Below are positions 21,765 through 34,922 of a stretch of 49,122 nt of DNA, piece after piece. The stretch comes from Acidobacteriota bacterium (lineage in GTDB: Bacteria; Acidobacteriota; Thermoanaerobaculia; Gp7-AA8), in assembly GCA_021781455.1 (NCBI GenBank), contig JAJXWV010000063.1, positions 1 through 49,122 on the forward strand. The letters are read 5' to 3'. The first letter of the stretch is position 1. Each line of letters begins with the position of its first letter. A model generated the notes under the pieces. It did not search any database, was not told where the DNA came from, and saw only the letters and a program-made list of their open reading frames with translations. The position numbers were made by a program, and so were the translations under genes.

Positions 21765-21938
21765 TCCAGCCCCCCCGCCAATCGCAACAATTCATCAACC
21801 CCTGTCGGATCTCCCTACGCACAGTCGTCGATTCCCACACGCTGCGCGGCAAAACCTGCCTTCGGCCATGCCGGTCGATTCGGCCTAACACCCCACGGCG
21901 TCGGGACTTCCGACAATTTCGCGAATTCGGAAAGCGTC

Positions 21939-21954
21939 CGGCACAGCGCTTGAG
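21939..21954 (+). promoter_or_regulatory. Possible sigma-54 promoter (-24/-12)
   Basis: CGGCACAGCGCTTGAG resembles TGGCAC-N5-TTGC: the GGCAC block and TTG are present at the right spacing, but the -12 C is replaced by A. It lies about 50 bases before the first gene of the redox cluster. It is a weak match, worth noting because a sigma-54 activator is encoded at 31.1 kb. Confidence 0.3.
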
Positions 21955-22003: not shown

Positions 22004-22252
22004 ATGACCGCAGCGGAAGTCTTCGAGCTCAACATCGTGAACGCCCTGCTGGGACTCGCCACGCTGGTCTGCATTCTGGCCGTCGTGTGGGGAGTGGTCT
22101 CGGAAGTTGCGGCGCGGATGCGCGCACGCGTGAACGCCTACGCCGACAGCCACACCTTCGCCATGCCGGAGCTCGGCCTGACGATGGCTGACGGCGGCGA
22201 GAAGGTCGACGCAAAGGCCGACGAGAAGAAGGACGACGAGGCGAAGAAGTAA
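22004..22252 (+). CDS. Small membrane protein of the redox cluster
   Basis: An 82-residue protein with one membrane helix (about residues 10-33, VNALLGLATLVCILAVVWGV) and a charged C-terminal tail rich in Lys, Asp and Glu. The family is not recognised. ATG 22004 follows GGAGGAAACC. It is the first gene of a closely spaced run extending to 28852, so it is likely a small accessory or anchor subunit of the membrane redox complex. That role is inferred from context only. Confidence 0.7.
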   Translation: MTAAEVFELNIVNALLGLATLVCILAVVWGVVSEVAARMRARVNAYADSHTFAMPELGLTMADGGEKVDAKADEKKDDEAKK

Positions 22253-22335
22253 TCGATTCGCCAGTGGCCAGTGACCGGACGCCGGAGTGCAGAGCCGGCG
22301 CCGATCGCTCCACCGAACCATCACAGGAGCCGGCC

Positions 22336-23310
22336 ATGAAGTGTCCGTTTCTCAGAGACGTCAACGTCAAGTACTGCGAGGTGTCGGCGTATCGGAAGAT
22401 GATCCTGAGCGCCTCGACCGACACCGGCACCGAGCGGTGCTCTTCCCACAACTACGCGCAGTGCCCGGCCGCAGTGCCCCGTCTGCAGGGGCTTCCCCGC
22501 ACGGAGCGCTGCCCGTTCCTCCACCTTTCGCAGGCGGAGTTCTGCGCGGCTGCCTCGGTGACGAAGTACGTGCCAGCCACCAACGATCTGCTCTCGCGCT
22601 GCAACTCGGACGGACATCTCTACTGCGAGCTGTTCCTCACCCGTGCCGATCCCACCGGCGCGCGCCGTCCCCGGACCGTGGGCACCCACGTTCCCGCGGT
22701 GGGCGACCGCATGCCTTCCGTCGAGGGCATTCCCGTTCCGCCGCAGCTCTCCTACACGCCGAACCACATGTGGCTCGACGTCGCCGAGGACGGCTTCTGC
22801 CACGTCGGGATCGACGGCTTTGCCGCAAAAGTGATCGGCTCGGCCGAGAAGGTCACCTTCGCCACGTCCCGCGCGGTCGGCCGGCCCGTCGCCATGCTGA
22901 CCGTCAACGGCGTCGACCTGCAGATGGTCTTCCCGAATCCACTGCACCTGTCGGCAGCCAACCTCTATCTCCGCACGGCGCCGTCGAAGATGACGTCCGA
23001 TCCGTACGGTGCGGGCTGGCTGTTCGAAGGATTCGAGCCCACCGGAGCCGGTGCCACCGTCGGCTCTGCGGCGCGCGAGGGGCTCATCTCCGGCGAGCAC
23101 GCGCTGGCCTGGATGCATGCCGAGTCGGAGCGTCTGACGCAGTTCGTCCATGAGCAGGTTGCCGCGCCGTCGCCCGCCGGCGAGCAGTTCATGGCCGACG
23201 GCGGCGGTGCCGTCATCGACGGAGTGGCCGCACACCTCGATCGTCAGGGGCTCATCAATCTCATGACCGCGTTCTTTGCACCGCAGCTCACATGGCGGAG
23301 GTCGTGGTGA
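22336..23310 (+). CDS. Cys-rich GcvH-like protein without lipoyl lysine
   Basis: The 324-residue protein has two parts. Residues 1-100 contain a duplicated cysteine module, C3-x10-C14-x20-C35-x7-C43 and C59-x10-C70-x18-C89-x7-C97, each opening with CPFL; it could bind metal or Fe-S. From about residue 138 a glycine-cleavage H-protein fold follows (YTPNHMWLDV to GAGWLFEG). The lipoyl lysine of true GcvH aligns to Gly191 in TVNGVDLQMVFP, so it should not carry lipoate. A C-terminal helical tail follows. No signal peptide or membrane helix is seen. ATG 22336 follows CAGGAG. Its end overlaps the cytochrome start by four bases (GTGA). Function unknown. Confidence 0.8.
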   Translation: MKCPFLRDVNVKYCEVSAYRKMILSASTDTGTERCSSHNYAQCPAAVPRLQGLPRTERCPFLHLSQAEFCAAASVTKYVPATNDLLSRCNSDGHLYCELFLTRADPTGARRPRTVGTHVPAVGDRMPSVEGIPVPPQLSYTPNHMWLDVAEDGFCHVGIDGFAAKVIGSAEKVTFATSRAVGRPVAMLTVNGVDLQMVFPNPLHLSAANLYLRTAPSKMTSDPYGAGWLFEGFEPTGAGATVGSAAREGLISGEHALAWMHAESERLTQFVHEQVAAPSPAGEQFMADGGGAVIDGVAAHLDRQGLINLMTAFFAPQLTWRRSW

Positions 23311-23897
23311 AACTACGCGGGTTCATCCCATTCGGTGTCGGACTGCTCGTGGCACTGGGCGGCGGATGGTTCGCCGTTCCTCGAGCGATGTACCGGCGCA
23401 CTGAGCAGCCCATCCAGTTCAGCCACAAGACCCACACCAGCGAGAAGGTGGGCATGTCCTGTCAGGACTGCCACTCCCTGAGCGCAGACGGAAAGTTCAG
23501 CGGGATTCCGCGGCTGGAGACCTGCGCCCCGTGCCATACCGAGCCGCAGGGCAAGAGCGCCGAAGAGAAGCGCCTGGTGGACGAGTACGTGTCGAAGAAC
23601 CGCGAGATTCCGTGGCTCGTCTATGCGCGGCAGCCGGAGAACGTCTACTTCTCCCATGCGCCGCACATCAAGCTCGCCGGGATCAAGTGCGAGCGTTGCC
23701 ACGGCCCGCACGGCTCGACCGGCCGCCTGCGCTCCTACGAGCAGAACCGCATCAGCACCTATGCCCGCGACGTCGAAGGCTACTCGCTGGTCAAGCTCAA
23801 CGCCGCGGACTGGCAGCAGGGCATGAAGATGAACGACTGCTCGCACTGCCACCAGCAGCGCGGCGTCCAGGAGAGTTGTCTGACGTGCCACAAGTAG
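23307..23897 (+). CDS. Membrane-anchored pentahaem cytochrome c
   Basis: A 196-residue protein with an N-terminal membrane anchor (about residues 6-26) and five CXXCH haem-c sites (CQDCH, CAPCH, CERCH, CSHCH, CLTCH) in a cytochrome c7/QrcA/ActA-like arrangement. Distal-ligand-type FSHKTH and FSHAPH motifs are also present. It would sit on the periplasmic face and pass electrons between the quinone-reactive complex and soluble cytochromes. GTG 23307 overlaps the preceding stop as GTGA with GGAGG upstream; ATG 23292 is an alternative. The gene order cytochrome, molybdopterin-family subunit, ferredoxin, NrfD follows that of qrcABCD. Confidence 0.9.
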   Translation: MKLRGFIPFGVGLLVALGGGWFAVPRAMYRRTEQPIQFSHKTHTSEKVGMSCQDCHSLSADGKFSGIPRLETCAPCHTEPQGKSAEEKRLVDEYVSKNREIPWLVYARQPENVYFSHAPHIKLAGIKCERCHGPHGSTGRLRSYEQNRISTYARDVEGYSLVKLNAADWQQGMKMNDCSHCHQQRGVQESCLTCHK

Positions 23898-23963
23898 ATC
23901 GCAGATCGCAGATCGCAGGCCGGGATTCAGCTCCCGAGACCTGACACCCGACACCCGACACCC
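23897..23963. repeat. Two heptamer arrays inside the redox operon
   Basis: Three copies of GATCGCA (23897-23917) and three copies of GACACCC (23943-23963) are separated by 25 bases. The second array abuts GGAGGA, the ribosome site of the next gene. These two words are unrelated to each other, unlike the inverted arrays elsewhere. Confidence 0.9.
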
Positions 23964-23972
23964 GGAGGACGC

Positions 23973-26012
23973 ATGAAGATGAACGTGACGCGGCGCGATG
24001 TCCTGAAGTTCGCCGGCGGCGGTGCCGTCGGAGCGATGCTCACACCGGCGCCGTGGAGGGCGATCGACGACCTGGCCATCTGGACGCAGAACTGGCGCTG
24101 GATCCCTCGACCGCCGAAGGGTCCCTCCACGATGCGCAACACCGCCTGCGCGCTCTGCCCGGCCGGGTGCGCGCTCCAGGCGCGCTGCATCGGCGGACTG
24201 CCGGTGAGCATGCACGCCGCAATCGCAGCTTCACCGCTCTGCCCGCTCGGCCTGACGGGACATCACCTTCCCTACCATCCGGCTCGCATCGCACGTCCGC
24301 AGCGCGTGATTCACGCCGGCGGCTCGACTCGGCGCATTCCGGTGCCGCTCGACACCGTCGTGATCGCAATGGCCGGCGGAATCGCGGAGGCGCGGCGCGC
24401 GTCGTGCTCCGTGGCCGTGCTGGACCTGCGCCCCGGCCGCAGCCTGTCGTGGGCGTGGCAGCGCTTTGTGGCCGCCATTTCGAACGGCGTCTACATCCCG
24501 GCACCCGGTCGCGAGGGAGCAAACCTCACCGCCCTGCAGGAAATGATCGGATCGGGCGACGGCGTCGGACTCGACCTGGACGGCGTTCGCACGATCGTCA
24601 GCTTCCGCGCGCCGCTGGCGGAGGGATGGGGACATCGAAGAGCTCTCGACCGTTTGCAGGACGGCCTGCGTCTGATCCAGGTCGAGCCGCTTCGATCGCG
24701 GACGGCCTCCGTTGCGCAGCGCTGGCTGGCGGCGAGACCGGGCAGCGAGGCCGCGCTCGCGTGCGGCATCGCCAATGTCCTGATGGCGGACAGGTCAGTT
24801 CCGTTCGACGCCAGCTACGAATGCTTCACACCGGATACCGTGTCAGCCCTGACGGGCGTGCCCGCCGATGCGATCGTCGCCACGGCGCGCGAGCTCGCGC
24901 AGAACGGGCCGTCGCTGGTGATCGCCGGCGAAGGCCTGGGACGGCACGCCGAGGAGGCCATCCTCGGTTTGAACCTGCTCCTGGGCAACAACGCCCTCGT
25001 TCCGCGGAGCGAGCTCCCGGCGCCTTACCCCGACGAAGCTCTGATCGCTCCGCAGGAGATCGATCGTGTCCCTGACCGCTCCATCGCCGTGCTGCTCGTC
25101 GACGGATCCGGGGGCGATGTTCGTTTCCCGTGGCCGCTCGTCCGCCGGAAACTGCGCGTGGACGCGCTGGTGGTCGCCCTCTCGCCGTTCTTTGCGGGAA
25201 GCGCGCAACGCGCCGACTACGTGGTTCCGGTCCTGCCGTACCTCGAGACGATTCACGAGCTGCCGACGCCGATCGACGCGCCTGCAGCAAGGCTGGCGAT
25301 CGCGGCGCCGCTGCTCCCGCCGCGCAGCAGTGCCGTCGACCCGGCCCGATTCCTGCGCGACATCGCACGCGCGTCGAGGATCGACATTCCCGGCGACTGG
25401 AAAACGAGCGAGGAGCTCATGCGCGCCCGCGTCGCCGTCATTCAGGCGAAGGGCGAAGGAACCGTCACGACGATCGCCGACGGCAGCACGAAGGCGGCCG
25501 CCGATTTCGCGTCAGCCGACGAGCTCTGGGAATCGCTGATTGCCGGGGCGGTCTGGGACGGCCAGAAGGCGACGGCGTCGTTCGCTCGCAAACGTCCGCG
25601 GCCTGCGCTGCCGCCGGAGAAGGAGCTCGTTCCCCTAAAACCGCTGATCGCCATCGCGCACATCCCCCGCGACGTCACCGCGTCCGCGGCCGTGTCGCCG
25701 GTCATGACGAAGCTTTACCAGGAATCGGGACTGCGCCGCACGGGCCACATGGTGGTGATCAATCCCGCAACGGCCGGGCAGCTGCGCCTGACCAGCGGTG
25801 CGGCGGCGCGGCTGGAGACCGCCGCCGGATCGACGCGCGTCGTGATCGCCACCGATCACGCCGTGATGCCGGGTGTCGTCGAAGTGAGCGCTGCGCCCGA
25901 TGCCGCGGCACTCGGAGAAAAGGGCGGCGGCGAAGCGTCGATGATCGACCTGCTCGTTCCCGATGCCAGCGGCTCATGGCAAAGCGTTGCTGCCCGTCTG
26001 GTGGAGGCATAG
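23973..26012 (+). CDS. Tat-exported molybdopterin oxidoreductase family subunit (QrcB/ActB-like)
   Basis: A 679-residue protein with a twin-arginine signal (TRRDVLKF, residues 6-13) and an N-terminal [4Fe-4S] motif C59-x2-C62-x3-C66-x23-C90. Molybdopterin-oxidoreductase domains follow, and a C-terminal dinucleotide-binding-like domain (TGHMVVINPATAGQLRLTSGAAA). It is short for a catalytic CISM subunit. I cannot identify a convincing Mo-ligating Ser, Cys or Sec, which fits the Qrc and alternative complex III subunits that have lost the metal. The likely role is structural and electron transfer in a quinone-linked complex on the periplasmic side. The cognate ferredoxin gene begins immediately after its stop. 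Confidence 0.85.
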   Translation: MKMNVTRRDVLKFAGGGAVGAMLTPAPWRAIDDLAIWTQNWRWIPRPPKGPSTMRNTACALCPAGCALQARCIGGLPVSMHAAIAASPLCPLGLTGHHLPYHPARIARPQRVIHAGGSTRRIPVPLDTVVIAMAGGIAEARRASCSVAVLDLRPGRSLSWAWQRFVAAISNGVYIPAPGREGANLTALQEMIGSGDGVGLDLDGVRTIVSFRAPLAEGWGHRRALDRLQDGLRLIQVEPLRSRTASVAQRWLAARPGSEAALACGIANVLMADRSVPFDASYECFTPDTVSALTGVPADAIVATARELAQNGPSLVIAGEGLGRHAEEAILGLNLLLGNNALVPRSELPAPYPDEALIAPQEIDRVPDRSIAVLLVDGSGGDVRFPWPLVRRKLRVDALVVALSPFFAGSAQRADYVVPVLPYLETIHELPTPIDAPAARLAIAAPLLPPRSSAVDPARFLRDIARASRIDIPGDWKTSEELMRARVAVIQAKGEGTVTTIADGSTKAAADFASADELWESLIAGAVWDGQKATASFARKRPRPALPPEKELVPLKPLIAIAHIPRDVTASAAVSPVMTKLYQESGLRRTGHMVVINPATAGQLRLTSGAAARLETAAGSTRVVIATDHAVMPGVVEVSAAPDAAALGEKGGGEASMIDLLVPDASGSWQSVAARLVEA

Positions 26013-26786
26013 ATGGCAACCGAACAAAAGCCGAAGTCGCGGTTCGGAATGGTGATCGACCTCGATCGCTGCAACGGATGCGGTGCCTGTGCCGCGGCCT
26101 GCGCGGTGGAGAACAACGTGCCGCCGGCGCACCCGACGGCCACCGACCGCACCGGGCTGACCTGGATGCGCGTCTACCGCGCCGACAACCGCCGCCCGTT
26201 CCCCGACAACCGCTCCGTCTACTTCCCCGTTTCCTGCCAGCACTGCGGGAACCACACGCCCTGCATGGCGGTCTGCCCGCAGAACGCCGTCGACATCAAT
26301 CCCGAGACCGGCGTGGTCAGCCAGATCCCGGTGCGCTGCCTCGGCTGCCGCTATTGCATGGCCGCCTGCCCGTTCCACGCGCGCTACTTCAACTGGTTCG
26401 ACCCCAAGTGGCCGCACGAGATGGAGAACGCCCTCAATCCCGACGTCTCCGTGCGCATGCGCGGCGTCGTCGAGAAGTGCAACTTCTGCCACTCCCGATG
26501 GCAGGCCGCCGTGGCCAGGGCCGCGGCGAACGGCAATCACGACATCGATCCCGCAGACTACGTTCCGGCCTGCGTCGAGGCCTGCCCGGAGAAGGCCATG
26601 ACCTTCGGCAACCTCGACGATCCGAAGAGCGAAGTGGCCAGGCAGTCGAAGGCGCCTATCGTTTTCCGGCTCCTGGCCAGGCTCAACACCGACCCCAAGG
26701 TCTACTACCGGTCCGACCGCGACTGGGTGCGCCGCCTCGGCGACACCGATGTGGCTCAGGGCGAAAGCGAGGTCTCCCGTGGATAA
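26013..26786 (+). CDS. Four-cluster ferredoxin subunit (QrcC/PsrB-like)
   Basis: A 257-residue electron-transfer subunit with cysteine groups for four [4Fe-4S] clusters: CNGCGACAAAC, CQHCGNHTPCMAVCP, CLGCRYCMAACP, and CNFC paired with a later CVEACP. It would carry electrons between the NrfD-type membrane subunit and the molybdopterin-family subunit. It starts directly after the preceding stop codon. Its last eight bases overlap the start of the NrfD-like gene, which indicates tight co-translation. Confidence 0.93.
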   Translation: MATEQKPKSRFGMVIDLDRCNGCGACAAACAVENNVPPAHPTATDRTGLTWMRVYRADNRRPFPDNRSVYFPVSCQHCGNHTPCMAVCPQNAVDINPETGVVSQIPVRCLGCRYCMAACPFHARYFNWFDPKWPHEMENALNPDVSVRMRGVVEKCNFCHSRWQAAVARAAANGNHDIDPADYVPACVEACPEKAMTFGNLDDPKSEVARQSKAPIVFRLLARLNTDPKVYYRSDRDWVRRLGDTDVAQGESEVSRG

Positions 26787-28011
26787 CAGCTTCATCAGCC
26801 GCGGCATCCGCCGCTGCTCGACGCCAAAGTTCCTGGCCTGGCTCGCTCCCTGGGCGGTCCTGCTCGGGTTAGGCGTGTTTGCCATCGGGCTCTGCCTGAT
26901 CAAGGGCCTCAATCAGACCAACATGGACAATCGCTTCGCCTTCGGCCTGTGGATCTTCCTCGACCTCACGGTCATCGCCCTCGGCGCCGGCGCGTTCTTC
27001 ACCGGATTCCTGCTCTACATCCTGCGGCGCGAGGAGCTGCGCGCCGTCATCAACAGCGCCGTGGTCATCGGCTTCATCTGTTACTCCGGAGCGGTGCTCA
27101 TCCTGGCGGTCGACGTCGGTCAGCCGCTGCGGGCCTGGTTCACCTTCTGGCATCCCAACGTGCACTCGATGCTGACCGAGGTCACCTTCTGCATCACCTG
27201 CTACCTCGGAATCCTGGCCATCGAGTACGCGCCGATCGTGCTCAAGAACCGGCAGCTGCGAGATGTCCCTTCATTCCTCCTCTTCGAGCATCAGCTGCAC
27301 AAGGTCATGCCGCTGTTCGCGGCGGTGGGAACGTTCCTGTCGTTCTTCCACCAGGGCTCGCTCGGCGGTCTGTACGGCGTGCTCCAGGGACGGCCGTTCG
27401 CCTTCCGCGACGGATTCGCGATCTGGCCTTCGACGTTCTTCCTCTTCATCCTGTCGGCGATCGCCACGGGGCCGGCCTTCGTGCTGCTGACCACGTGGAT
27501 GGTCTCGAAAATCTCGGGCAAGCAGCTGGTCCGCCACAGCGTGTTCGCGCTGCTGGCCCAGATCTCCGGCTGGCTGTTGATCGCGTACGTCGGACTGAAG
27601 AGCCTCGACACCCTGGTGTGGCTGAACGTGACCGCACCGCGCAGTGGCGTCAGCGCGATCCGCTTCTACGGCTGGCAGCCGTTCGCGAGCTGGATGCTGG
27701 TGGTGGAGATCGTGGTGCTCGGGCTTCTGCCCGCGCTGATCTTCCTCTCGCCGTCGCGGCGCCGCAGCACGCCCTGGCTGATCACGGCATCGCTGCTGGC
27801 CTGCGGAGGCGTGGCCGTCAACCGCTTCGTGATGACCATCCAGACGCTGGCCGTGCCGACGCTGAGGTTCGAGCCGTTCATGCTCTATTTTCCGAGCTGG
27901 CAGGAGATCGCCGCCTTCGTATTCGTGATTGCGTATGGCGTGATCCTCTACTCGTTGTCGTTCCGATACCTGACGCTGTTCCCGCAGGAGCGGGAGCTGC
28001 AGCAGCAGTGA
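26779..28011 (+). CDS. NrfD/PsrC-type quinone-reactive membrane subunit
   Basis: A 410-residue integral membrane protein with about ten helices, of the NrfD/PsrC/QrcD family that exchanges electrons with the quinone pool. Features include FGLWIFLDLTVIALGAGAFF in the second helix region, LAVDVGQPLRAWFTFWHPN, and FLSFFHQGSLGGLYGV. GTG 26779 is preceded by GAGGT and overlaps the ferredoxin stop. The open frame begins 30 bases earlier but without support. The second GcvH-like gene follows after ten bases. Confidence 0.92.
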   Translation: MDNSFISRGIRRCSTPKFLAWLAPWAVLLGLGVFAIGLCLIKGLNQTNMDNRFAFGLWIFLDLTVIALGAGAFFTGFLLYILRREELRAVINSAVVIGFICYSGAVLILAVDVGQPLRAWFTFWHPNVHSMLTEVTFCITCYLGILAIEYAPIVLKNRQLRDVPSFLLFEHQLHKVMPLFAAVGTFLSFFHQGSLGGLYGVLQGRPFAFRDGFAIWPSTFFLFILSAIATGPAFVLLTTWMVSKISGKQLVRHSVFALLAQISGWLLIAYVGLKSLDTLVWLNVTAPRSGVSAIRFYGWQPFASWMLVVEIVVLGLLPALIFLSPSRRRSTPWLITASLLACGGVAVNRFVMTIQTLAVPTLRFEPFMLYFPSWQEIAAFVFVIAYGVILYSLSFRYLTLFPQERELQQQ

Positions 28012-28021
28012 GGAGGCGCAA

Positions 28022-28852
28022 GTGTTTCCGGGAATCTACGACTTCCATTGGGACGCCGGGCACATCATCTTCCTGGGGATCTTCTACACGGTGCTGGTGA
28101 TCGTGGTGTCGACGATCGCCATCGCCATGCGGCGGGCCATCCTCGACTTCCGCGGCGAGCGCGCCGAGGCCCTGCGATGGCACGCAGACTTCGAGGATCT
28201 TCCCGACCGGTGGCGGCGCTGCAGGCACGAGCTCACCGGCGAGGTGGCCAGCCGCGTCTGCCCGAACGCGTTCGACTGCCGGCACTGCACGGAGCATCCG
28301 AAGTTCGTCGCCGCGCGCACCCCGTCCACGCTGGCGGCGACTCACGGCGCGGTCGTGGCCGGCTTCGCCGTTCCGGCCGACCGCCTCTACCACCGCGGCC
28401 ACACCTGGGTGCGTCAGGACGACTATGGCGTGCTGACCATCGGTCTCGATGATTTCGGTGCCCATCTCCTCGGCACGCCGGACGAGATCCGGTTGCCGAG
28501 GATCGGATCGCACGTCGTCACGAACGGCACCGGATGGCGGGCGAAGAAGAACGGCGTGGCCGTGCGCATCCTCGCTCCCATCGACGGCGAAGTGGTCGAC
28601 GTCGGGGGTCCGGACAAGGGCTGGTACCTGAAGGTCAGGCCGGACAATCCGCCCGACACGCGCCATCTGCTCACCGTGACGGAAGCCAAGCTGTGGATGT
28701 TGCGCGAGCTCGAGCGGCTGCAGACGTCGGTGGCCACCGAAGGAGTGGGCGCCGCCCTGGCCGACGGCGGCCTGCCGGTGGAAAACCTGTCGGAAGCGAT
28801 CCCGGCGGACCGGCGCGATGCCGTGATGGGGATGATGTTCCTGAACGCATAG
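28022..28852 (+). CDS. Membrane-anchored GcvH-like protein without lipoyl lysine
   Basis: A 276-residue protein with one N-terminal membrane helix (about residues 14-36), a cysteine motif (C67-x12-C80-x5-C86-x2-C89, within RVCPNAFDCRHC), and a GcvH fold (about 117-225) opening with YHRGHTWVRQ. The position of the lipoyl lysine is Gly178 in KKNGVAVRILAP, the same substitution as in the other GcvH-like protein of this cluster. A helical C-terminal tail follows. GTG 28022 follows GAGGAGG. It is the last gene of the cluster. Two lipoate-less homologues flanking one respiratory complex suggest an assembly or structural role, but none is established. Confidence 0.82.
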   Translation: MFPGIYDFHWDAGHIIFLGIFYTVLVIVVSTIAIAMRRAILDFRGERAEALRWHADFEDLPDRWRRCRHELTGEVASRVCPNAFDCRHCTEHPKFVAARTPSTLAATHGAVVAGFAVPADRLYHRGHTWVRQDDYGVLTIGLDDFGAHLLGTPDEIRLPRIGSHVVTNGTGWRAKKNGVAVRILAPIDGEVVDVGGPDKGWYLKVRPDNPPDTRHLLTVTEAKLWMLRELERLQTSVATEGVGAALADGGLPVENLSEAIPADRRDAVMGMMFLNA

Positions 28853-28964: not shown

Positions 28965-28984
28965 GTGCATGCGTTTTGATGCAC
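28965..28984. promoter_or_regulatory. Possible antitoxin operator GTGCAT-N8-ATGCAC
   Basis: A 6-bp inverted repeat with an 8-base spacer sits directly before the antitoxin start codon. Its position fits autoregulation by a ribbon-helix-helix antitoxin. Inferred only. Confidence 0.35.
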
Positions 28985-29218
28985 ATGGCATCCTTGCAGA
29001 TCCGCGACATCCCGGCTGAGCTCTATGAAGCGCTGACCGAACGCGCCAGACGGAACCGGCGGAGTCTCGCGCAGCAGGCCGTGACGGACCTGTCGCGAAT
29101 CGACGAGCTGGAAGCGCGCAAGCGTCGTGACCTCGCCGTCGAACGCCTTCGCGGCATTCCATCGCGACGGATCAAGCTGGACCCTGTTCGCATCGTGCGC
29201 GCGGATCGCCAGCGATGA
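28985..29218 (+). CDS. FitA/VapB-type ribbon-helix-helix antitoxin
   Basis: A 77-residue protein with an N-terminal ribbon-helix-helix domain (MASLQIRDIPAELYEALTER, then RNRRSLAQQAVTDL) and a basic C-terminal tail expected to wrap the toxin. It should neutralise the adjacent PIN toxin and repress the operon. ATG 28985 was chosen; ATG 28979 adds two residues, and no ribosome site is visible for either. Its stop overlaps the toxin start as ATGA, the usual arrangement for such pairs. Confidence 0.85.
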   Translation: MASLQIRDIPAELYEALTERARRNRRSLAQQAVTDLSRIDELEARKRRDLAVERLRGIPSRRIKLDPVRIVRADRQR

Positions 29219-29625
29219 GAATCGTCCTCGATGCCTCGGCGGCTCTGGCGGCCGTCGTCGGCCGGTCCCCGGCCGCCGGCGTGCTCGATGTCCTGGCGAG
29301 CGCGTCGATCGTTCTCGCTCCGGACCTTTTCGCATCGGAGATTGCAGACGGGCTGTGGAAGTACGTCTCCGCTGGTGAGCTCACGGGCGACCAGGCGTCG
29401 ACCGCGCTGGATGCCGCACTCGACCTCGTCGAGCGCCTCGTCCCCACGTCCTCGCTCGCGCAGGAAGCCTTGCGCGAGGCCACTCACTATCGGAATGCGG
29501 TCTACGACCTCTGCTACGCAATCGCCGCCCGCCGCGAGGGATGCGCGGTGCTCACGCTCGACCGCCGGCTGCAGACTCTCCTCAAGAAGATGGGTATTCC
29601 GGTCGCCGCGATCAAGAAACCGTAG
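29215..29625 (+). CDS. vapC: VapC-type PIN toxin
   Basis: A 136-residue PIN-domain ribonuclease. Acidic residues of the active site are visible in IVLDASAAL (Asp6), the SEIADGLWKY segment, YRNAVYDLCYA and VLTLDRRL. Length is typical for VapC. It overlaps the FitA-like antitoxin by four bases. The RNA target is unknown; VapC proteins often cut tRNA or rRNA. Confidence 0.9.
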   Translation: MRIVLDASAALAAVVGRSPAAGVLDVLASASIVLAPDLFASEIADGLWKYVSAGELTGDQASTALDAALDLVERLVPTSSLAQEALREATHYRNAVYDLCYAIAARREGCAVLTLDRRLQTLLKKMGIPVAAIKKP

Positions 29626-29669
29626 GCTCGGGAGAACAGTTCCACCGGGACGCTCGCCACTGGAGGTCG

Positions 29670-29730
29670 TGTTCGTTTGCCCTTCTCCCCCGCCCCAGGG
29701 AAGAGGTGCCGAAGGCGGATGAGGTGTGTT
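29670..29730. repeat. Decayed fragment of the dispersed hairpin repeat
   Basis: TTCGTTTGCCCTTCTCCCCC followed by AGGTGCCGAAGGCGGATGAG matches the left half of the repeats at 3640-3835 and 30770-30945, with several differences and the right half missing. Confidence 0.7.
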
Positions 29731-29765
29731 TCTTCAGGAGCGAGACCCTGGGCGCTCTCCTGCTG

Positions 29766-29939
29766 CCGCGGGGCGTCGAAGGCGCGGAAAGAAACCATGG
29801 AAACGACGAACGAAAAGCCAGACGCCACGACTTCAATGGGCCGCGGCTTCGAAGCCGCGGAAAGGCGTCACTAACAATGGAGGAACGCATGACTCTTGAA
29901 GCGCTTCAATGGGGCCGCGGCTTCGATTGATCGCAAGAC
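29766..29939. CRISPR. Decayed CRISPR-like array remnant
   Basis: A repeat reading CTTCAATGGG followed by the perfect palindrome CCGCGGCTTCGAAGCCGCGG and AAAG (29831-29864) is followed 73 bases later by a second unit CTTCAATGGGGCCGCGGCTTCGA with a diverged 3' end (29904-29939). Upstream, CCGCGG...TCGAAGG-CGCGGAAAG ends exactly 73 bases before the matching point of the first unit (29791 versus 29864), which suggests a third, degraded unit. Both intervening spacers are 39 bases and unrelated. Repeat length (about 35), hairpin and period fit CRISPR, but no cas genes are in the window and only three units exist. Confidence 0.45.
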
Positions 29940-29967
29940 ACTTCCAAACGCGAGCCCTTTCCATCCG

Positions 29968-30414
29968 TCAACGCCATTGCGCCAGGTCGAAGCCTGATCG
30001 AAGTGGATCGAGGAATTGGACGCCTTCCAGACGGCGGCCGCTTGCAAAGTCTTCTGTGAAGATCGTCGGAACCTGATTGAGGCGGGCGGTGGCCCAGATC
30101 TGCGCGTCGTAGTAGCTCAGTTTGTGTTGCCGCACTCCCCGTGCGGCCTCCAGCACGATGAAACGGGTGAGGTCGAACACCGGAAATGCAATGGCCAGCA
30201 GCGATGCCTGAGCGAGCGCGTCGCCGATGGCGAGGATGGGACGAGTTCCCCGTGTGGTGGCGGCGATGAACTCGCCGAGGATCTGGCCACTGAGGCGCCC
30301 AAGGCCGCTTTCGATCAGCGTCTCGAGAACGGCGACCGCACGGGCATGCCTCACGTCGTCGGATCGAGAGTGGGCGTAGACGAGGATGTTGGTGTCGATC
30401 AGGACCTGGTCCAT
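29968..30414 (-). CDS. PIN-domain toxin (second VapC-type)
   Basis: A 148-residue PIN-domain ribonuclease with VLIDTNILVYAHS (first Asp at 7), ILGEFIAATTR (Glu), and the downstream KLSYYDAQIWATA acidic site followed by IFTEDF. It belongs to a different PIN subgroup from the toxin at 29215. Its start overlaps the end of the upstream antitoxin gene by 16 bases. Confidence 0.87.
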   Translation of the reverse strand: MDQVLIDTNILVYAHSRSDDVRHARAVAVLETLIESGLGRLSGQILGEFIAATTRGTRPILAIGDALAQASLLAIAFPVFDLTRFIVLEAARGVRQHKLSYYDAQIWATARLNQVPTIFTEDFASGRRLEGVQFLDPLRSGFDLAQWR

Positions 30415-30689
30415 CGGCCAATCCGATCCTCATAAAGCGAGTCGCGCTTCAGGCGGCCTCTGCGAGATGGGCCGGGCTTCGCCTCGAGCGAGCGAATGAA
30501 CGCCAGGAGCTTGCGACCCGCTTCAGGGTCCGCCACGCGGGATGCGCGGGCCGGCCCGGCGGTCTCGGACTGGTCGAGGATCTCGCGGATGATTTCCGCT
30601 TCAGTGACTCCCCCCTGCCGGGCTCGTCGCTTGAGCAGTCGATCGTGTCGCTGCTCGAGATAGACCTGCTTGCGGATCATGCGGCTCAT
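30399..30689 (-). CDS. CopG-like ribbon-helix-helix antitoxin
   Basis: A 96-residue protein with MIRKQVYLEQRHDRLLKRRA and a GGVTEAEIIREILDQ helix typical of CopG/ribbon-helix-helix antitoxins, followed by a variable toxin-binding tail. ATG 30689 was chosen (ATG 30680 is possible). The frame is open further upstream, but that region contains the repeated operator-like sequence. It pairs with the overlapping PIN toxin downstream. Confidence 0.82.
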   Translation of the reverse strand: MSRMIRKQVYLEQRHDRLLKRRARQGGVTEAEIIREILDQSETAGPARASRVADPEAGRKLLAFIRSLEAKPGPSRRGRLKRDSLYEDRIGRWTRS

Positions 30690-30694
30690 GCTTA

Positions 30695-30715
30695 CATACA
30701 TCGTAGCATACATCG
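30695..30715 (-). promoter_or_regulatory. Direct-repeat operator CATACATCG-TAG-CATACATCG
   Basis: Two perfect 9-base direct repeats with a 12-base period lie 5 bases upstream of the antitoxin start. About one helical turn of spacing suits cooperative binding by a ribbon-helix-helix repressor, so autoregulation is likely. The AT-rich composition also suits the promoter. Confidence 0.55.
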
Positions 30716-30769
30716 CGCCCGTGACCGGGAACGATCGCCGCTGCCGCTTCTCCGAGATCCCTCGCTGAC

Positions 30770-30945
30770 TTTCCAAGAAACTCTCAGTGTATATGCGGGC
30801 TCTGGCGTTCGTTGCCCTTCTCCCCGCCGCAGCGGGGAGAAGGTGCCGAAGGGGGATGAGGGGCCTTTCTCTCGAACAAGAACGAGACCCCTCACCCCGG
30901 CCCTCTCCCCGCTGCGGCGGGGAGAGGGGGAACGATCGAATCGAA
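30770..30945. repeat. Dispersed hairpin repeat, copy B
   Basis: Nearly identical to 3640-3835, in the same orientation, including TTCCAAGAAACTC, TATGCGGGCTCTGG and both GGGGAGAGG-type hairpins. It lies between the antitoxin gene and the end of the response-regulator gene. Confidence 0.85.
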
Positions 30946-31092: not shown

Positions 31093-32445
31093 TCACCGCT
31101 CGATGGCGTACTTCTTCATCCGGTCGTACAGCGTGGAGCGATCGATGCCGAGGCTCGAGGCGGCTTCCTTGATGTTGCCGTTCGTCCGGCGGAGCGTCGC
31201 CATGATCACCTGCCGCTGCACGTCGTCGAGCAGCACGTTGTCGGGCGCCACCCATCCGTTGGAGGTCTTCGCCTGCTGCAGGAATCCGAAGTCCTCCTCG
31301 GTCAGCACGTGCGTCCTGGCCGTGACCAGCGCGCGCTCGACGGCGTTCTCCAGCTCGCGCACGTTGCCGGGCCACTCGTGGTCGAGCAGCAGCTTCAGCG
31401 CGCTCTCCGAGATCTCGTGCACGTCTTTTCCGAGCTCGTGCGACAGCCGGTCCAGGAACGAATGCGCCAGCAGCGGGATGTCCTCGCGCCGGTCGCGCAG
31501 CGGCGGGATCTGGATGGTGATCACGTTGAGCCGGTAGAAGAGGTCGTCGCGGAACGTTCCCGCCGCGACCGCCTCCTGAAGGTTGACGCGCGTCGCTGCG
31601 ATCGCCCGCACGTCCACTTTCACTTCCTCCCCTCCGCCCACGCGGAAGAACGAGCGCTCCTGCAGGACGCGCAGGAGGTCGACCTGCAGCTTCGGGGAGA
31701 TGTCGCCGATCTCGTCGAGGAAGATCGTGCCGCCATCGGCCATCTCGAACTTGCCGCGCTTCCGGTCGTTCGCTCCCGTGAACGATCCCTTCTCGTGGCC
31801 GAACAGCTCCGACTCCAGCAGCGTCTCCGCCAGCGCCGCACACGACACCGCCACGAACGGCTTGTCGGCGCGATTGCCCGAGTAGTGGATGGCCCGCGCC
31901 ACGAGCTCCTTCCCGGTTCCGCTGCCGCCCAGGATCAGCACCGTGCTGCGCAGACTGGCGATGTCGCGGATCAGGTCGAAGATCTCGACCATCTTCGGGT
32001 TCTTGGAGACGATGTCGTGAAAGCTGTAGTGCTTGGACAGCTTCTTGCGCAGGATCAGGTTCTCGCGCTGCAGGTTCTTCACCTTGATGATCCGCTCGAC
32101 GAGCAGCGAGATCTCCTCGGGGCTGCACGGCTTGACCACGTACTCCTGTGCGCCTTCCTTCATCGCCGTGATGGCGGTGTCCACCGTGGCGTAGGCGGTC
32201 ATGATGATCACGGACGCATCCGCATGCCGCTTGCGGATCTCCAGCATGGTCTCGATGCCGTCGATCCCGGGCATCTTCAGATCGAGGAAGTAAATCGCGT
32301 AGTCCCTGACCGCCGCCTTGGCGAGGGCCTCCTGTCCCGAGGCCGCGGTTTCGACCGAATACCCGTCCTCGGCCAGCCATTCCGCGAGCGACTCGCGCAT
32401 GACCGGCTCGTCGTCGACGACCAGGATTTCCCAATGCTTTCTCAC
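31093..32445 (-). CDS. NtrC-family sigma-54 response regulator
   Basis: A 450-residue transcription activator. The receiver domain (residues 5-118) has phospho-acceptor Asp55 in YFLDLKMPG and Lys105. The AAA+ domain (about 140-375) has Walker A GGSGTGKE (173-180), the sigma-54 contact loop GSFTGA (220-225, Ser where most have Ala) and [12 protein letters not shown] Fis-type helix-turn-helix closes the protein ([20 protein letters not shown]). It would activate sigma-54 promoters when phosphorylated by the partner kinase. Its start overlaps the archaemetzincin stop by four bases (32442-32445), so the three genes form one operon. The nearby redox cluster is a plausible target. Confidence 0.95.
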
Positions 32446-32999
32446 TTGATTGCCCCCGTCGTGGAAGTGTTGATGGCGTCGCGCAGCAGAGTCGCGCAGT
32501 CACCGCAGAATTCGGCTTGTTTCTCGTCGAGCAGCTGCAGGTTCGTGGACAGCCGCATCGTGCACAGCGGGTCGCTGCAGTGGGTTAGGCCGAAGCAGTG
32601 CCCGATCTCGTGCAGCGCCTCCTTGCGAACGCGCAGCAGGAACAGCGCGTGGTTGGGCGGAAGACCGTAGAACTCCTGGCGCAGGCGCGACAGCGACAAC
32701 ACCGCCGCCGGCCCGTTGAGCTGCGCCTGGCCGTAAACGAACGACAGCATGGGGATGAAGATGTCGTGATCGGTGATCACCATCAGCTTGAGGGCGTCGG
32801 CGGGCCTGCGGTCGAGCGCCTCGCGCAGCACGAGAGTCGAGCTGTATTGATTGCGCGCCGCGTCGTACGCGTATTCCGGATCGGGAAACGGCCCGAGGCG
32901 GCGCGTCTCCATGCCGAACGTCGTTGACAAGCACACCTCCGCGTACGCAATGGCCTCTTCCTCCGCCGGTCCGGCCGCGGCCACCGCGATCACGGCCAT
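32442..32999 (-). CDS. Archaemetzincin (zinc metalloprotease)
   Basis: The 185-residue protein has the full archaemetzincin signature: HEIGHCFGLTHC (His130, Glu131, His134, His140) followed by C146 and M148, and a later CGDC (165-168) that completes the structural zinc site. This makes it a predicted zinc-dependent peptidase. There is no signal peptide, so it is likely cytoplasmic. It is placed between a sensor kinase gene (3-base gap) and its response regulator gene (4-base overlap). This suggests it acts in, or is controlled with, that signalling pathway. The substrate is unknown. Confidence 0.93.
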   Translation of the reverse strand: MAVIAVAAAGPAEEEAIAYAEVCLSTTFGMETRRLGPFPDPEYAYDAARNQYSSTLVLREALDRRPADALKLMVITDHDIFIPMLSFVYGQAQLNGPAAVLSLSRLRQEFYGLPPNHALFLLRVRKEALHEIGHCFGLTHCSDPLCTMRLSTNLQLLDEKQAEFCGDCATLLRDAINTSTTGAIK

Positions 33000-33002
33000 C
33001 GC

Positions 33003-34622
33003 TCAGACCCCGGCGGCCAGGACCGCCCCGTTCTCGACCTCCACCGTCTTCACGGGAAGCGTGACCTGGAACGTGCTCCCCTGGCCGACCTTGCTCTCGA
33101 CCTCGATGTCTCCGCCGTGGGCCTCGATGATTCCGTAGACCACGGCCAGCCCCAGGCCGACTCCCTTCCCTTCTTCCTTGGTCGTGAAGAACGGGTCGAA
33201 AATCTTGCGAATCACTTCGGGCGGCATGCCCGAGCCGCTGTCGGTGACGTCGAGCGTCACCGACTTGCGGTCCGACGACGGCCGCGACCGCACCGTCACC
33301 GTCCCTCCGCCCTTGATCGCCTCCGCCGCGTTCATCACCAGGTTGATCACGACCTGCTGGATCTGCGACTGGTCGCAATGGATCTTCGGAACGTCCTCGG
33401 CCAGATCGAGGTGGAGGTCCACGTTCGACAGCTGGAGCTTGTGGGCGAGCAGCGAGACCGTGGTGCGCACGATCGCGTTCAGGTCGGCGTCGCTGGTCTG
33501 CGGCTTCGACCGTCGCGAGAACGACAGCAGGTCCGAGACGATGCGCCCGACCCGCGCCGTCTCCGACGAGACCTGGCCGAGGTAGCGGCGGAAGTCGGGC
33601 ACCCGGTTCGGAGGGATGCCGTCGTCCTTCAGGACGCGCTGCATCAGCATGGACAGGTTCAGCACGCCGGAGATCGGATTGTTGATCTCGTGAGCGACGC
33701 TCGCGGCGAGCTGGCCGAGCGACGCCAGGCGGTCGGTCTGCACGAGCTTCTGCTGCGCGCTCCGCAGCTGACGCGTGCGCTCCTCGACCTTGTTCTCGAG
33801 CTTCGCCGTGAACTCCTCGTTCTCGGCCCTGGACGCCTGGAGGCGTTCGCGCATGGTGTTGAACGAGTGCGCCAGCTGGTTGAGCTCCTCGCTGGAGGTG
33901 ATGGCGATCGGGTGGTCGAGCTGCATCTCGCTGATGGCCTTCGTCGCCCCGATGAGCTTGAGGATCGGTTTCTCGACGAAGCGGCCGGTGAAGAAGACGA
34001 GGAACACGCCGATCATCAGGATCTCCAGAATCGTCATCACGGCCGTGCGGGTGCGGAGGTTGCGCATCTCGTCGTCGACGTGGCTGGCGTCGATGGTCAG
34101 GTCGAGGACGCCCAGGACGCTGACGCTGGCCGGGTGAGCGTGGCAGCTGGCGTTGGCGCAGGAGGGCTCGTTGTAGATCGGCGTGATCATGGCCAGCGTG
34201 CGATGGCCGTCGGGCGAGCGGAAGGTCCGGGCGCGGGAAGGAGCGTCGATCTTGACCAGCGGCGTCGAAGATTTCGAGTGACAGGGCGTGCAGACTTCGG
34301 CGCGCTCGTCGAGGTGCAGCTTCTCCTGCTGTGCGGTGGAGAACATCAGCACGCCGTCCTTGTTGAACATGCGGATCTTCTCGACGCCCTGTTTTTCGGC
34401 GATGGTCTTCATGACCGTGTAGGCGTCGTCGCGGCGGTCGGCGAGCATGGCCTGCCAGGTCGCGCTGGTGATGCTGCGGGAGAGCTGATCGGCACCGCGG
34501 GTCATGCTCTCGAGGAGCTGCTTCTCCTGGTCGTGGATGTTGATCCAGAGCGTGGCGGCCTTGACGCCGAGCACGAGGAGCGCAACGGAGAGGATCAGCT
34601 TTGTGGCAAGGCGTCGTGGCAC
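33003..34622 (-). CDS. Sensor histidine kinase with c-haem sites in its periplasmic domain
   Basis: A 539-residue membrane kinase. Transmembrane helix 1 is at about residues 6-27, a periplasmic domain at 28-193, helix 2 at about 194-212, then HAMP, a coiled coil, a HisKA domain with phosphorylated His311 in [10 protein letters not shown], and an HATPase domain ([28 protein letters not shown]). The periplasmic domain carries CTPCH (111-115), a standard haem-c motif, and CANASCH (155-161), a CX4CH motif of the kind seen in some cytochromes c3. It probably senses redox state or a haem ligand. GTG 34622 with GGAGGT upstream is chosen over the longer open frame. First gene of the operon. Confidence 0.92.
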
Positions 34623-34764
34623 GGGACCTCCGGAGGAGGCGCGGCGCAAGTGGCCTGGCGCGACCGTGTGGGATTGTCCGGCACGGCTCGGCCCGACGCC
34701 GATGACGCGGGTCGCGCGGCAGGGGTGATGGAGGTCATGGGGAGGGTGGTCGCGCGAGAGCTCT

Positions 34765-34922
34765 AACCACAGAGGCAGAGAGGAAAGACGTGTCATCCTG
34801 AGAGACCCTGCGGAAAACCAGGGTCCGCGACTCCAGCCACTGAATCTTCACCACAGAGGCACAGAGACACCGAGGTACACTGAGTTTTTCTCTGTGAATC
34901 TCTGTGTCTCTGCGTCTCTGTG
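34765..34922. repeat. ACCACAGAGG copies and inverted octamer arrays
   Basis: AACCACAGAGG occurs at 34765-34775. At 34852-34875 three octamers (CACAGAGG, CACAGAGA, CACCGAGG) face TCTCTGTG, TCTCTGTG, TCTCTGCG, TCTCTGTG (34889-34922). It occupies the gap between the glycosyltransferase gene end and the kinase gene start. The word equals the terminal repeat of the composite elements at 2266, 42186 and 48651. Confidence 0.8.

Follow-up and report, generated by a model that had tools for sequence, protein, structure and literature searches.

A widespread Qrc-type operon with non-lipoyl GcvH-like proteins predicted to face the cytoplasm

Why are the genes of a Qrc-type respiratory complex flanked by two proteins with the fold of the glycine cleavage H protein (GcvH) but without its lipoyl lysine? 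The question arises from contig JAJXWV010000063.1 of an Acidobacteriota bacterium (assembly GCA_021781455.1), whose 49,122 nt constitute the window analyzed here. A compact seven-gene operon occupies positions 22004–28852 of the + strand, with no more than 83 bp between genes and two overlapping pairs. All on that strand, its genes encode, in order, a small one-helix membrane protein (22004–22252), GcvH-like A (22336–23310), a QrcA-like membrane-anchored pentaheme cytochrome c (23292–23897), a QrcB-like Tat-exported molybdopterin-family subunit (23973–26012), a QrcC-like four-cluster ferredoxin subunit (26013–26786), a QrcD-like integral membrane subunit of the NrfD family (26779–28011) and GcvH-like B (28022–28852). 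An earlier note on this DNA had given the same gene order and coordinates and had named six of these genes as here; the small membrane protein, inside its interval, had gone unnamed. We favor, as somewhat better than an even bet, the reading that the operon encodes a Qrc-type complex together with a non-lipoyl, cytoplasm-facing GcvH-like accessory module, under the control of a neighboring kinase and sigma-54 regulator.

The first point to establish is whether the arrangement recurs. Scanning 84,980 species genomes with QrcD yielded 79 loci (QrcD identity 60–83%), counted as 78 because L163 is the same contig as L065. These loci span about seven phyla (Acidobacteriota, Bacteroidota, Ignavibacteriota, Kryptoniota, KSB1, Eiseniibacteriota and Myxococcota, the last including L171), and the window's nearest neighbors in the tree are Thermoanaerobaculia. 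Where enough contig is present to tell, GcvH-like A lies upstream of QrcA in 56 of 57 loci, GcvH-like B downstream of QrcD in 72 of 72 and the small membrane protein upstream of GcvH-like A in 56 of 56. The arrangement recurs far beyond chance, and the association of the GcvH-like genes with the Qrc-type complex is well supported; the gene-order survey that the earlier note had proposed thus finds co-occurrence conserved. Pairwise distances for GcvH-like A or B correlate with those for the Qrc subunits at 0.72–0.82, and those for A and B with one another at 0.83, values that partly reflect common phylogeny. QrcD-like scores above 380 bits were found only in already known carriers, and plasmid records held only distant NrfD proteins (identity at most 28% among the matches listed). 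Besides the operon and a kinase–protease–regulator set described below, no further flank gene is conserved in more than eight loci.

The order of the four central genes had been taken to indicate qrcABCD, and curated family models support this assignment, with QrcB divergent. QrcA (NF041781, 213.5 bits, cut-off 180) and QrcD (NF041784, 588 bits, cut-off 570) pass their models; QrcC (NF041782, 352 bits, cut-off 400) and, with a weak score, QrcB (NF041783, 221.6 bits, cut-off 440) fall short of theirs, but in each case the family is still the best-scoring one. The A-B-C-D order is that of the QrcABCD menaquinone reductase of Desulfobacterota, studied in N. vulgaris. Residues mutated there include QrcC Y113 and QrcD D70, Y110, D120, S138, Y150 and R358, of which all but QrcD D120 and R358 proved essential (PMC13059093). 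The corresponding positions, matched by a near-constant offset and context without a Desulfovibrio sequence, are QrcC Y114, located between two cysteine ligands, and QrcD D72, Y112, D122, S140, Y152 and R359 (numbered from the open reading frame (ORF) start at 26749); all are 100% conserved, as are the 16 cysteines of QrcC. Counterparts of every essential residue (QrcC Y114; QrcD D72, Y112, S140 and Y152) are therefore kept, which on sequence grounds makes menaquinone reduction with cytoplasmic proton uptake plausible for the window complex.

The complex nevertheless differs from its Desulfovibrio relative. QrcA has five CxxCH motifs in all 66 homologues, and the window protein accordingly five hemes, whereas Desulfovibrio QrcA has six (PMC8076601). 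Four cysteines of QrcB (C-x2-C-x3-C-x23-C) are 98–100% conserved, whereas Desulfovibrio QrcB is described as being without redox cofactors, and the flanking GcvH-like and small membrane proteins are additions of the window operon. QrcB also matches 2vpw_A weakly, and in this match the cysteine of PsrA (2vpw) that we take to be the molybdenum ligand aligns to a proline. No solved structure resembled QrcD by sequence at E 0.01. Alternative complex III shares its subunit types with the window operon, namely a multiheme cytochrome and molybdopterin-like, iron–sulfur (FeS) and NrfD-type membrane subunits (PMC6303296), but its B subunit is a fusion and its NrfD-type subunits number two, whereas the window operon encodes QrcB and QrcC separately and has a single NrfD-type gene. 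QrcD is, moreover, phylogenetically separate from ActC (PMC6303296). A link to sulfate reduction was considered and rejected, as just 3 of 45 carriers have a DsrA above its cut-off, and this genome is not one of them. Heme-copper oxidases are found in 28 of 30 carriers, and 26 of 30 have matches to the NiFe-hydrogenase family, only some of which are full-length.

What kind of proteins, then, flank the complex? Both match PF01597 (GCV_H; cut-off 22.2 bits), GcvH-like A with 22.6 bits over residues 138–230 and GcvH-like B with 35.7 bits over residues 122–195, and their AlphaFold2 models have pLDDT values of 87.8 and 91.1, respectively. The C-terminal domain of each finds H-protein 1htp as its best match in fold searches (A: Z 15.6, rmsd 2.0, 128 aligned; B: Z 12.6, rmsd 1.8, 118 aligned). 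The lipoyl lysine of the ESVKA motif is missing from both, its position in an alignment to the genome's own GcvH being G192 in A and G178 in B. The earlier note was thus correct on the two GcvH folds, on the glycine in both proteins and on residue 178, but its residue 191 for the first protein should read 192. Since the fold is kept while the lysine position is glycine in most homologues and variable in others, A and B fall outside the lipoyl-carrying GcvH family. Retention of the fold could also be taken to mean that they are cofactor carriers after all, with a lipoyl or other group attached elsewhere; we regard this as extremely improbable, given that the lysines scattered among homologues are not conserved and that the genome encodes a separate, true GcvH. 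A and B further differ from GcvH in their extra cysteine modules and DGG tail and, for B, in a membrane anchor, and neither gcvP nor gcvT was seen next to them. LbpA, the lipoate-binding GcvH-like protein of the sHdr pathway, likewise acts outside glycine cleavage, but it carries lipoate, whereas A and B lack the lysine.

The added cysteine motifs, also noted previously, are real and invariant. GcvH-like A has eight cysteines (C3, C14, C35, C43, C59, C70, C89 and C97; 56 sequences) in two modules, C-x10-C-x20-C-x7-C and C-x10-C-x18-C-x7-C, which precede the GcvH fold; GcvH-like B has four (C67, C80, C86 and C89; 66 sequences) in a single module, C-x12-C-x5-C-x2-C, between an N-terminal membrane helix and the GcvH fold. 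Fold searches were little informative on these modules, as GcvH-domain matches filled the lists. In a survey of 149 genomes from the phylum, the A and B modules had almost all of their matches in NrfD, GcvH-like or kinase–protease–regulator clusters, a few weak short matches not having been followed; the idea that the modules are generic domains found everywhere was rejected for this phylum on that basis. Neither outcome that the earlier note had named as refuting its reading was observed: homologues are not found mostly outside such clusters, and lysine is not conserved at the lipoylation position.

Hydropathy and charge predict an N-out/C-in topology for GcvH-like B and the small protein and a cytoplasmic location for GcvH-like A, which has no membrane helix. 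A helix followed by positive charge is present in 96% of GcvH-like B homologues and 100% of the small proteins, and is absent from most A homologues. By this prediction, all three proteins face the cytoplasm, next to a complex that has its cofactor subunits in the periplasm. The earlier note had offered structural subunits, assembly factors or metal carriers as candidate roles for the two GcvH-like proteins. In the mechanism that we propose, QrcABCD would function as a periplasmic cytochrome:menaquinone oxidoreductase of the Qrc type, with electrons presumed to flow in that direction, and its cytoplasmic face would bear an added, non-lipoylated module made up of GcvH-like A (soluble), GcvH-like B (membrane-anchored) and the small anchored protein. 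This module may attach to the cytoplasmic side of QrcD, with the GcvH-like domains serving as protein-binding scaffolds rather than lipoyl carriers and the cysteine modules most likely binding metal, either Zn or an Fe-S cluster. Alternatively, the GcvH-like proteins might assist assembly or maturation, for instance by delivering Fe-S to QrcB or QrcC or by helping to insert the complex. Cysteine-rich modules suit metal handling, the cytoplasm is where maturation of QrcB and QrcC would take place ahead of Tat export, and the four-cysteine motif of QrcB is conserved. We nonetheless think such a role quite unlikely: similar modules occur beside NrfD clusters that have no QrcB-like match and at one locus (L084) without NrfD, and neither the common DGG motif nor the co-conserved small anchor would be explained.

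The regulatory part of the favored reading concerns three genes on the − strand, encoding a sigma-54-dependent response regulator (31093–32445; PF00158, PF00072), an archaemetzincin protease (32442–32999; NF033823, 149.5 bits, cut-off 145) and a histidine kinase (33003–34796; HisKA, HATPase_c, HAMP) with one CxxCH in its sensor region. More than half of the loci retrieved have homologues of this set next to the operon; many contigs end too early to tell. The kinase CxxCH is present in 38 of 43 carrier homologues, and the archaemetzincin motif HExxHxxGxxHC with further cysteines, found in the window, is intact in 44 of 44 carrier-locus homologues. We know of few functions assigned to archaemetzincins in bacteria. 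A candidate sigma-54 −24/−12 site, ccGGCACagcgcTTGA, is located at 21938–21953 on the + strand, its last position deviating from the GC consensus. Scanned with weights of our own, the region upstream of the small gene has a site scoring at least 17 in 42 of 59 loci; shuffled sequences would give 7 such loci and random windows about 10. The CxxCH-sensor kinase and the sigma-54 regulator would switch the operon on, presumably with this particular regulator in control. Between the operon and the set, which are close together in most related loci, lie two toxin–antitoxin-like gene pairs (28976–30776; PIN-type toxins judged by eye). Elsewhere in the same genome (G000:C35; L099:7784-13606), a second FeS/NrfD pair is accompanied by a kinase, a sigma-54 regulator and an archaemetzincin of its own, and after it comes a short ORF similar to the N-terminus of the third GcvH-like protein described below.

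A short motif, mostly ADGG, is common to the small protein (as a conserved TMADGG tail), GcvH-like A (MADGG) and GcvH-like B (LADGG). It falls in low-confidence stretches of both structure models, which are probably flexible. In the first 40 genomes sampled, a few of them not checked protein by protein, 29 have an archaemetzincin and 11, all of one family, do not. The GcvH-like proteins without the lipoyl lysine that were retrieved carry DGG or DGA in the 29, barring one truncation and two marginal matches, and neither in the 11. Three of a further 44 operon carriers are without archaemetzincin (L133, L155 and L176); GcvH-like B has TRDGR or TEDGQ in L155 and L176, and L133 keeps TDGG. Of the 14 sampled genomes without archaemetzincin, 13 therefore lack the motif or have it in degraded form; these genomes represent two lineages at most, and metagenome assemblies may be incomplete. 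We hypothesize that motif and protease are linked. As a tentative and rather doubtful extension, DGG could be the site of recognition or cleavage by the archaemetzincin, so that the heme-sensing kinase, sigma-54 regulator and protease would control the respiratory complex via its lipoate-less, GcvH-like cytoplasmic subunits. If true, this would be a proteolytic redox-control system not described before. Related tails occur in other settings. At L066:8446-9616, L073:6694-7309 and L079:8511-8900, two or three tiny membrane proteins, each with a FAQDGG tail, are encoded in tandem next to a four-cysteine GcvH-like gene and FeS/NrfD genes. A third lysine-less GcvH-like protein of the window's genome (G000:C84; L101:8957-9691) combines a membrane helix with LAQDGG; the 18 kb stretch retrieved contains no match to FeS, NrfD or regulator genes.

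Lysine-less GcvH-like genes are often near other FeS/NrfD genes in the 149 genomes, and some of these contexts bear on whether the proteins are subunits at all. At L085:7431-9077, L086:7248-8585 and L087:7927-9048, a membrane-anchored receiver domain is fused to a lysine-less GcvH domain beside kinase and FeS/NrfD genes, and eight more genomes of that family encode similar GcvH-like proteins of about 370 aa. At L084, both kinds of module are fused to a GcvH domain beside the kinase–protease–regulator set, with no NrfD in the fetched 20 kb. A kinase-region ORF at this locus (L084:5327-7357), adjoining the archaemetzincin and sigma-54 regulator, opens with a two-cluster ferredoxin-like stretch, and the protein beside it fuses several four-cysteine modules to the GcvH domain. 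Such cases, and the way in which DGG tracks the archaemetzincin, make it a serious minority possibility that the GcvH-like proteins are signaling adaptors, which either inform the kinase, archaemetzincin and sigma-54 regulator of the redox complex's state or receive their output. However, A and B are encoded inside the structural operon, where they bracket qrcABCD and diverge with the Qrc subunits, and L133 and L155 keep GcvH-like B though their genomes show no archaemetzincin.

Several observations weigh against an accessory module of the complex under sigma-54 control. The receiver fusions fit a signaling role as well, and L084 has a lysine-less GcvH-like gene by the regulatory set with no NrfD nearby. 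L133 (Myxococcota), the sole exception for GcvH-like A, is without both this gene and the small protein while the rest is kept, and therefore neither is strictly required. For Qrc purified from Desulfovibrio, just four subunits are described (PMC13059093), our structure models are of single chains, with no predicted interface among the proteins, and the window's own −24/−12 site is imperfect and among the weaker ones (15.7). On the other side stand the gene order in about seven phyla, the parallel divergence, the GcvH folds and the absence of a conserved lysine. Further support comes from the predicted topology, the cluster-bound cysteine modules, the other NrfD clusters with lysine-less GcvH-like genes, the retained essential residues of QrcC and QrcD and the enriched −24/−12 sites. 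The small protein, the DGG motif, the sigma-54 sites and the adjoining kinase, archaemetzincin and regulator, which the earlier note had overlooked, shift the weight toward a regulated accessory module.

Descriptions of Qrc place it in sulfate-reducing Desulfobacterota (PMC13059093) and in one sulfate-reducing acidobacterium (PMC10564751). We found no literature linking GcvH-like proteins with NrfD or Qrc, or tying archaemetzincin to two-component systems, in sources that mostly exclude subscription journals. The window most likely represents a widespread, undescribed Qrc-type variant with a non-lipoyl GcvH-like module predicted on its cytoplasmic face. A distinct Qrc-type operon in Acidobacteriota, Bacteroidota/Ignavibacteriota and others, mostly bearing oxidases, gives this energy-conserving module a wider range. 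The tie of an archaemetzincin to a respiratory operon, together with the common DGG motif, is directly testable, and two conserved GcvH-like proteins unable to carry lipoate at the usual site suggest a role for the GcvH fold beyond lipoate chemistry.

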